From Crocosphaera sp. UHCC 0190 (GTDB lineage: Bacteria > Cyanobacteriota > Cyanobacteriia > Cyanobacteriales > Microcystaceae): a stretch of DNA of 64,000 nt. How positions within the stretch are numbered: position 1 is the stretch's first letter; every line of letters begins with the position of its first letter. Below the pieces are notes generated by a model that saw nothing but the letters and a program-made list of their open reading frames with translations, had not been told where the DNA came from and searched no databases. Position numbers and translations under genes: made by a program. This document shows positions 17,258-40,514 of the stretch, one piece after another. Location: NCBI RefSeq assembly GCF_034932065.1, contig NZ_JAYGHP010000001.1, positions 1 to 64,000 on the forward strand, given 5' to 3'.

Positions 17258-17354
17258 TAATACATACTCGTTACCAGTTTAGCTTAGAGAGACAAAAATT
17301 GTCTAGTTAGGGTTTATCTTTTATTTTCTTTTTACTTAAAAATGTAAGTTATTC

Positions 17355-17543
17355 TGGCTCTAGCGAACCTAGTATGTAAAACGATTAAAAATTACAGGCT
17401 TAAACCCGATCGGGTTAAGCTATAGGAACTAAGCCTGGCTACCCAGGCTGAAAATTAGGCTGTGTAGACAGCCTTTGTGCTTATAGAATAAGGCTTTAGC
17501 CTGTATTCATTTATTGATTTTACATGGCAAGTTCGGTAGAACC
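17355..17543. mobile_element. MITE-like structured element, copy A
   Basis: Imperfect terminal inverted repeats run from GGCTCTAGCGAACC (left, 17356) and TTCGGTAGAACC (right, ending 17542), each bordered inside by ATGTAAAA or its complement. The interior (about 17390-17505) has an outer stem ACAGGCTTAAA/TTTAGCCTGT enclosing three hairpins: AACCCGATCGGGTT, AGCCTGG-CTAC-CCAGGCT and AGGCTGT-GTAG-ACAGCCT. No ORF is present. Copy B lies inverted at 40347-40514. A further end-like piece (GGTTCGGTAGAATCGG) lies at 17571-17586. It sits in the 500-base gap between the Fur-type gene and the PAS kinase. Confidence 0.7.
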
Positions 17544-17731
17544 GTTATTCTTTGAATAATTCACATTATAGGTTCGGTAGAATCGGATTTCTTGGTTTTT
17601 GTTATCATAAACTTAATTCGTGGATAAGTCTATTATAATACAAATTAAATACCAACTTGCTCCAATATTATTGTTAACTTTCTAGGAAAAGATTCAGTCT
17701 AAAATTTAGATAAAGATATCTTAACTACACC

Positions 17732-40346: not shown

Positions 40347-40514
40347 GTAAAATTAATAAATGAATACAGGCTAAAGCCTTTTTCTATAAGCACAAAGGCT
40401 GTCTACACAGCCTAATTTTGAGCCTAGGTAGCCAGGCTTAGTTCTTATTGCTTAACCTTTAAGGGTTTAAGTCTGTAATTTTTAATTGTTTTACATCCTA
40501 GGTTCGGTAGAGCC
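40347..40514. mobile_element. MITE-like structured element, copy B (one end missing)
   Basis: This is the inverted counterpart of 17355-17543, close to 90 percent identical by eye across about 154 bases. One end (GGTTCGGTAGAGCC at 40501) is intact; the other is degenerate or lost near 40347. The three inner hairpins are kept although the loops and some stem bases differ: AACCCTTAAAGGTT replaces AACCCGATCGGGTT, and one G-C pair becomes G-T. It lies between the Crp paralogue and cobL. Confidence 0.7.

Follow-up and report, generated by a model that had tools for sequence, protein, structure and literature searches.

The stretch of Crocosphaera sp. UHCC 0190 DNA that we analysed (64,000 nucleotides of contig NZ_JAYGHP010000001.1, hereafter the window) carries two copies of one MITE family, copy A with both ends and copy B with one end lost (Table 1). 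Copy A begins with GGCTCTAGCG and finishes with CGGTAGAACC, and its 34-nt arms (17356-17389 and 17510-17543) are 74% complementary, which confirms the inverted terminal repeats reported in the first-pass annotation. The latter set the bounds at 17355-17543, which is right from position 17356 onwards, base 17355 being part of the target-site duplication. It also described the element as non-coding, and indeed no open reading frame of at least 100 aa overlaps copy A. A lone end of the same type lies 14 bp downstream and is perhaps the relic of another insertion.

Table 1. Position of the two MITE copies and of their components in the window.
Feature	Position	Strand	Remarks
MITE copy A, ISL3-type ends	17356..17543	.	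188 bp
Left target-site duplication GTTATTCT	17348..17355	.	base 17355 included
Right target-site duplication GTTATTCT	17544..17551	.	identical to left one
Left terminal inverted repeat GGCTCTAGCGAACCTAGTATGTAAAAC	17356..17382	+	1 mismatch to end pattern
Right terminal inverted repeat GGTTCTACCGAACTTGCCATGTAAAAT	17517..17543	-	0 mismatches to end pattern
Structured core of copy A	17399..17504	-	model R1, 113.5 bits
Hairpin A	17491..17502	-	model and core fold; position counted from sequence
Closing stem S, 5' arm CTATAAGCAC	17477..17486	-	model; position counted from sequence
Hairpin B, 18-nt palindrome, T-rich tail on + strand	17457..17474	-	model and core fold
Hairpin C, 18-nt palindrome, T-rich tail on - strand	17432..17449	-	position counted from sequence
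Closing stem S, 3' arm GTTCCTATAG	17420..17429	-	model; position counted from sequence
Hairpin D, CCC GATC GGG, loop = GATC	17399..17419	-	position counted from sequence
Lone degenerate end, same type as those of copy A	17558..17584	-	3 mismatches
MITE copy B, one end lost	40347..40514	-	BLAST match to copy A
Remaining terminal repeat of copy B	40488..40514	-	0 mismatches to end pattern
Core of copy B	40366..40471	+	108.7 bits

Folded as a single sequence, the plus strand of the 189 nt forms the outer stem and the three hairpins (D, C and B) noticed at the outset, with a free energy of -69.2 kcal/mol that none of 200 shuffles equalled (z -5.63). A fourth local hairpin (A), as well as a stem that encloses B and C, emerges from the comparative model and when the core is folded by itself. 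This core, in copy A, also folds better than shuffled sequence, both as RNA (z -3.42 on the minus strand, 1/200 shuffles; z -4.17 on the plus strand, 0/200) and as DNA (z -4.66 and -4.01, 0/200 each). It is quasi-symmetric: its opposite strand scores 81.3 bits with model R1 at 17402-17507. Copy B matches copy A over 168 positions (2-169 of 189) at 91% identity and is decaying. Its hairpins were thought to be preserved, which holds for hairpin B; yet hairpin C has lost a pair to a substitution, there is damage to the closing stem, and the fold of the core is just slightly more stable than those of shuffles (RNA z -1.91, 9/200; DNA z -2.34, 4/200). The replacement of GATC by TTAA, initially placed in a stem, affects the loop of hairpin D and lies outside its stem.

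The two copies belong to a large family. BLAST of the 189 bases against the own genome, a draft of 4.43 Mb in 38 contigs, gave at least 44 matches, a lower bound in that 40 of 83 first-look candidates were scored, with some of these matches being fragments of the same copy. Apart from copy A, eight matches are 94-97% identical across 186-189 bases, and a second subfamily stands at about 72% identity. The end pattern has 50 matches in this genome vs none for the reversed control pattern. A second genus of the same taxonomic family (G002) has BLAST matches at 22 places; the plasmids searched with the window MITE gave no match. When ends were paired, 11 of 19 ISL3-type pairings of the own genome had perfect 8-bp duplications, against 0/76 in shifted controls (mean 7.2 vs 2.3), although one of the 19 joins the left end of copy A to the neighbouring lone end. 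The corresponding figures in G002 are 9/17 at 8 bp and 0/68. The first-pass annotation would have been abandoned had there been just two copies folding no better than shuffled sequence; copies are many, and copy A beats its shuffles. Dispersed copies, terminal repeats, 8-bp duplications, and ISL3 insertion sequences (IS) with matching ends in other genera all agree with a MITE family. Two mini MITEs, of 98 bp (L080, G000:C3:387673-387770) and about 70 bp (L089, G000:C4:155103-155172), still have the end sequences, but little or nothing of the core is left in them.

A transposase with the same ends, which had been proposed as something to look for, exists in other genera (G006, G012, G033) and is of the ISL3 family. 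The ends of copy A are matched over 26-38 bases at 87-96% in the relatives G006, G012, G014, G022 and G033, and IS elements of 1417-1427 bp with matching ends were traced from those matches. Full-length copies number four in G006 (near-identical), five in G012, and one, with an internal stop, in G033; six of these ten have a perfect 8-bp duplication. The G006 protein has the domains PF01610, PF14690 and PF13542. One G012 copy, C1:24907-26127, coincides in coordinates with a copy in Rippkaea orientalis PCC 8801 (plasmid pP880101) that bears the annotation 'ISL3 family transposase'. No intact ISL3 IS with ends of the copy A type was found in the own assembly, a draft from which multi-copy IS may be missing. 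Autonomous partners were considered there and rejected: C4:200509-201731 (L118) is an ISL3 relic in two pieces, with stops, whose ends GGCTCTTCTAGACT lie 1.4 kb apart and are unlike those of the MITE, and C4:191988-192689 is a partial ISL3 match (query 8-242) free of stops and devoid of copy A-type ends. Because the partner IS is found elsewhere and only a relic and a partial match are found here, we regard this as an ISL3-type MITE whose helper was lost from, or is missing in, the own assembly. Copy A would have been moved by an ISL3 transposase working in trans on its ends, creating the 8-bp duplication. About 30 bp at each of its ends resemble an ISL3 IS, and a palindromic core of ~106 nt occupies the place of the transposase gene.

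Aligning 17 chosen copies of the core (alignment A1) gave four hairpins and the closing stem, with 36 pairs and 89% of cells paired. A1 leaves out 12 of 29 sequences (L019, L028, L029, L079, L083, L085, L087b, L090, L091, L095, L106, L112), some decayed or gapped and some near-duplicates, which favours pairing in the covariation counts drawn from the 17 copies. RNAalifold, when run unaided on A1, recovers three of the hairpins (B, C and D) and misses hairpin A and the closing stem. Two units of two hairpins each, in inverted orientation, form the core as a dimer; every unit is composed of an 18-nt palindrome, a T-rich linker ending in TATAG or GTAG, and a second hairpin, and model matches consequently overlap on both strands. 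The tag at the hairpin foot is mostly TATAG in the own genome, and GTAG in family f18 and in some copies of G009. The loops of B and C are mostly CTNC and GNAG, which are mutual reverse complements, and in G009 the two halves of the core can pair together over 22 consecutive bp.

With the ~106-nt core as its basis, the covariance model that had been suggested as a check matches the own genome 128 times, G002 at least 150 times and G009 84 times, both strands counted. No match occurs in G006 or G012, the carriers of the helper IS. A screen of 386 sampled cyanobacterial genomes (E <= 1e-4, best ten candidates scored per genome) found the core in 49 of them and in 26 of 142 genera. Alignments A2 and A3 keep the better-scoring strand per place, A3 holding the best 150 of 159 matches, and the scanned sets of 42 and 75 core loci are part of the loci found by model searches. 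Rfam 15 gave no match at gathering scores for six loci, nor for window positions 17300-17600 up to E 1.

Outside the ISL3-type family, the same core lies between other transposon ends, of at least three kinds in all, with duplications of 8, 9 and 3 bp. The nine G009 matches to the pattern CAGGGCTRTTTCATTCT..TTTGAA all contain it (9/9), with the proviso that this pattern includes subterminal bases and might overlook an autonomous element whose inner bases differ. Pairings of these ends are perfect at 9 bp in seven of ten cases, compared with 0/40 in controls. The same 17-base ends, 1158 bp apart, flank a frame-broken transposase (PF13808, PF01609) in an uncultured cyanobacterium, a pair of domains that we take to mark the ISAs1 family. 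The third kind, the GAGGNTGTTTGAAAAGT ends, has 72 matches in five genomes of family f18; of these, 30 loci were examined, 25 of which had the core (E <= 0.01). Their pairings show perfect 3-bp duplications (TTA/TAA) in 20/24 cases and in 2/96 controls. The ends are presumably IS5-like, and no transposase partner was found for them. We infer that f18 is Nostoc-like, given that similar elements occur on plasmids of Nostoc, Anabaena and Dolichospermum. At one f18 locus (L286) the core lies outside the paired GAGGNTGTTTGAAAAGT ends. Three other loci (L267, L272, L277) have these ends around interiors of ~170-217 bp devoid of a core match, so that GAGGNTGTTTGAAAAGT ends occur with more than one interior.

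The proportion of cores flanked by recognisable ends within 70 bp varies among genomes. Among 43 places of the own genome, 14 have both ISL3-type ends, 12 have one, two have one ISAs1-like end and 15 have none; the same classes in G002 count 17, 9, 1 and 8 out of 35. In G009, nine of 13 places have both ISAs1-like ends, two have one and two have none. Cores from other genomes (30) mostly lack any of the three ends (23), the rest having GAGG-type ends (6) or one ISL3-type end (1). Reversing the flanks as a control gave 0, 1, 0 and 1 matches, respectively, in the own genome, G002, G009 and the other genomes. These sequence comparisons suggest that each end type captured the core. The core, which is widespread in cyanobacteria, would be a REP-like repeat that ended up within MITEs of three or more end types. 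A possible fourth kind, the inverted repeat GATAATCCTGATTGACTGACAAAACTT, surrounds the core at L218 (G315:C117). Comparing the joined flanks of five g34 copies (L146, L153, L159, L162, L164) with 16 genomes revealed no clean empty-site junction among the matches listed; the L153 construct spans the join in G153 and G103, in spacers that are too diverged. One GAGG-type end lies near L159. At L309 (G082:C488), GTAGGGTGGGCAATGCCCACC repeats occupy the spacer where G095 carries the core, which suggests a spacer hospitable to several palindromic repeats.

Paired changes are in excess among the copies of the core. In the 17-copy A1 the covariation score is 0.257 vs 0.120 when shuffled, and both members of 15 of the 36 pairs have changed, so the search for covarying pairs that had been proposed gave a positive answer; further pair types in A1 are not above shuffles (27 vs 27.5). 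Family counts were made in four families, on 60 of 121 places, these being of equal length and less than 25% different from a hand-entered family reference. The 1320 stem cells include 70 lone changes, of which 42 break the pair and 28 keep it. Double changes to another Watson-Crick pair occur in 14 cells (8 distinct) vs 0.31 expected, and a double change breaks the pair only once. Relative to the family sequence, 20 of 120 B and C loops differ, including four exact inversions (L005, L015, L082, L228) and five that are one base off (the loop and stem table took 61 places, at a limit of 30% difference). Loops with three or four changes number seven vs 0.004 expected, and all seven are inverted or one base off. 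Compared with close relatives, L082 has seven differences and L228 six, and in each case the inverted loop accounts for four. These inversions are partly non-independent, as L017 and L024 may share one event.

The fact that loops invert as blocks points to template switching between the arms of the palindromes. Template switching between inverted-repeat arms leaves homogenised arms and an inverted spacer, according to the excerpted accounts of these mutations (PMC8604942, PMC8794818), and the core shows the same two features. The excerpts describe them in RNA genes and in yeast coding genes, whereas here they concern a dispersed mobile element. Replication would switch template between the arms, copying one onto the other and inverting the loops, and the stems would stay paired largely by this process, an RNA function not being required. 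We infer that template switching is the main cause of the paired changes. Overall, copy A is thus probably a non-autonomous MITE with ISL3 ends, holding a REP-like core that it shares with other end types and whose pairing has been kept largely by template switching.

Covariation might instead suggest that the core is a structured RNA under strand-specific selection, and the excess of paired changes, the folding of the copy A core (z -3.4 to -4.2) and some local leanings towards G·U pairs fit this idea. If pairing were selected in an RNA made from one strand, lone changes read on that strand should yield G·U more often than A·C. They number 24 vs 15 cells (p 0.20), or 16 vs 14 when only distinct ones are counted (p 0.86). 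By hairpin, the G·U/A·C counts are 8/6 in B, 5/6 in C and 11/3 in D (p 0.06 in D, falling to 4/3 distinct). By group they are 14/4 in G009 (p 0.03) but 37/64 in the own genome (p 0.009), 22/22 in G002 and 24/29 in other genomes, and these p values overstate the evidence because cells shared by relatives are not independent. There is no consistent signal of G·U over A·C, in what is a small test. Model matches that overlap on both strands, the 42 lone pair-breaking cells tolerated, the block inversions and the lack of an Rfam match in the tested loci also speak against such an RNA. We set it aside as the main reading and consider it very improbable, in view also of the unbiased orientation of the copies described below. 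Given that no consistent G·U excess exists and that inverted loops are what template switching is reported to leave, covariation by itself is no proof here of selection on an RNA. The original suggestion of selection on folding is accordingly not needed to account for the paired changes, in excess as they are. The other suggestion, of a strong structural constraint during spread, may hold, as the core is common to several end types and frequent between convergent genes.

This last observation comes from the gene context of the copies. Thirty own-genome loci were fetched first, and 29 were counted because one copy overlaps an ORF, ORFs being mechanical calls of at least 70 aa. The copies lie between convergent ORFs in 14 cases, tandem ORFs in 11, and divergent ORFs in four, and those in tandem contexts are unbiased in orientation (six sense, five antisense). 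Control spacers of at least 50 bp are convergent in just 6/55 cases (Fisher p 0.0002), and the excess persists in the absence of a length limit (14/90, p 0.0006) or at a limit of at least 100 bp (3/35, p 0.0004). Moreover, in 60 copies the 9 nt following hairpins B and C outward hold on average 5.1 and 5.0 T, compared with 2.8 and 3.3 inward. Shuffles contain 0.3 terminator-like sites, compared with two around copy A and four around copy B, and the terminal repeat holds two of the latter. The convergent enrichment, the outward T tails and these sites keep alive a rival explanation: the core would be a bidirectional terminator or insulator, whose T-tailed palindromes stop outward transcription, with copies between convergent genes being kept and their pairing selected. 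On the modelled strand this should produce more A·C than G·U changes in B and the opposite in C, which the counts given above fail to follow. Also, the T runs are short, and the purging of insertions upstream of genes would enrich convergent spacers just as well. We therefore find this function possible, though on balance unlikely.

The composition of the core suggests another rival. As an inverted dimer of hairpins tagged by GTAG or TATAG, it could be a REP or REPIN that a RAYT transposase (HUH Y1) mobilises via single-stranded DNA and that entered MITEs only secondarily. Nine of ten genomes searched have a match to a Y1 transposase, and cyanobacterial GTAG REPs have been described, with dimers inside long palindromes in A. 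variabilis, in the excerpted text of PMC3733652. But G315 carries the core and has no Y1 match, the g34 comparison did not provide a clean empty site, and the own genome has a single Y1 match (C14:19889), which is bordered by another REP, GTAGGGTGGGCATTGCCCACC, in a locus that lacks a core match. The core is absent from all four Y1 loci scanned, namely that of the own genome and L188, L195 and L196. A RAYT is unsupported as the mover of the core in the own genome, given that its Y1 gene adjoins another REP, and we see an origin of this kind as doubtful in general. The own Y1/RAYT-like match (L180, G000:C14:19889-20260), with GTAGGGTGGGCATTGCCCACC-type REPs around it, has the layout of a REPtron, and its palindrome differs from the MITE core.

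Why is the core of these MITEs found between such different ends? A tentative answer, to which we give somewhat less than even chances, is that the palindromic cassette is a common passenger: it would have been taken up independently, across the Cyanobacteria, by ISL3-type, ISAs1-like and TNA-targeting (IS5-like) ends, would be advantageous to the MITEs, and would have its hairpins repaired by template switching, free of selection on each base. The advantage might then be, for example, harmlessness by bidirectional termination, or a role in replication. The sharing of the core raises a broader question, that of how unrelated transposons come to have non-autonomous elements with a common interior, and what these elements gain from it. 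Covariation is usually taken as strong evidence for a functional RNA; finding it here, clear and accompanied by a mutational footprint, is a warning for RNA discovery. In turn, the many dispersed copies of the core offer ready natural material on which template switching in bacteria can be measured.

Similar elements are known in cyanobacteria. The SDR repeats of Nostoc punctiforme (Elhai 2008) are reportedly hairpins of 21-27 nt with compensatory changes, some of them within minitransposons. In Microcystis aeruginosa PCC 7806, an ISL3-linked MITE of 187 nt has 8-nt direct repeats (excerpt of PMC11448079). It resembles copy A in its ISL3-type ends, 8-nt repeats, length, stem-loop fold, dozens of copies and lack of a transposase; yet, as far as the excerpt describes them, its ends start with GGCTCTTCG and form an imperfect repeat of 9 nt, whereas here they start with GGYTCTACCGAAC and extend over ~27-34 nt. 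GTAG-tagged REPs are described in Anabaena, Nostoc and Cyanothece, and A. variabilis has many GTAG-15 dimers inside long palindromes (PMC3733652, in excerpt). Such dimers and REPINs, as excerpted in PMC3733652 and PMC3116915, share with the core inverted pairs of short hairpins, a GTAG-like tag, many intergenic copies and a cyanobacterial distribution. Compared by description, they differ in that the core has two hairpins per unit and, in the own genome, the tag TATAG, and is packed in DDE-type MITEs. Nezha, named in PMC3733652 and PMC10969869, is also a cyanobacterial MITE. With the Microcystis MITE and the GTAG REP dimers in print, the kind of element is already known. In the open-licence literature searched we found no description of one core across end types with different duplications, the A. 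variabilis passage aside, nor of a template-switch footprint in such a repeat. Finally, other cyanobacterial genomes have loci (L149, L158, L163) where the core, or half of it, recurs in tandem or at short distance.
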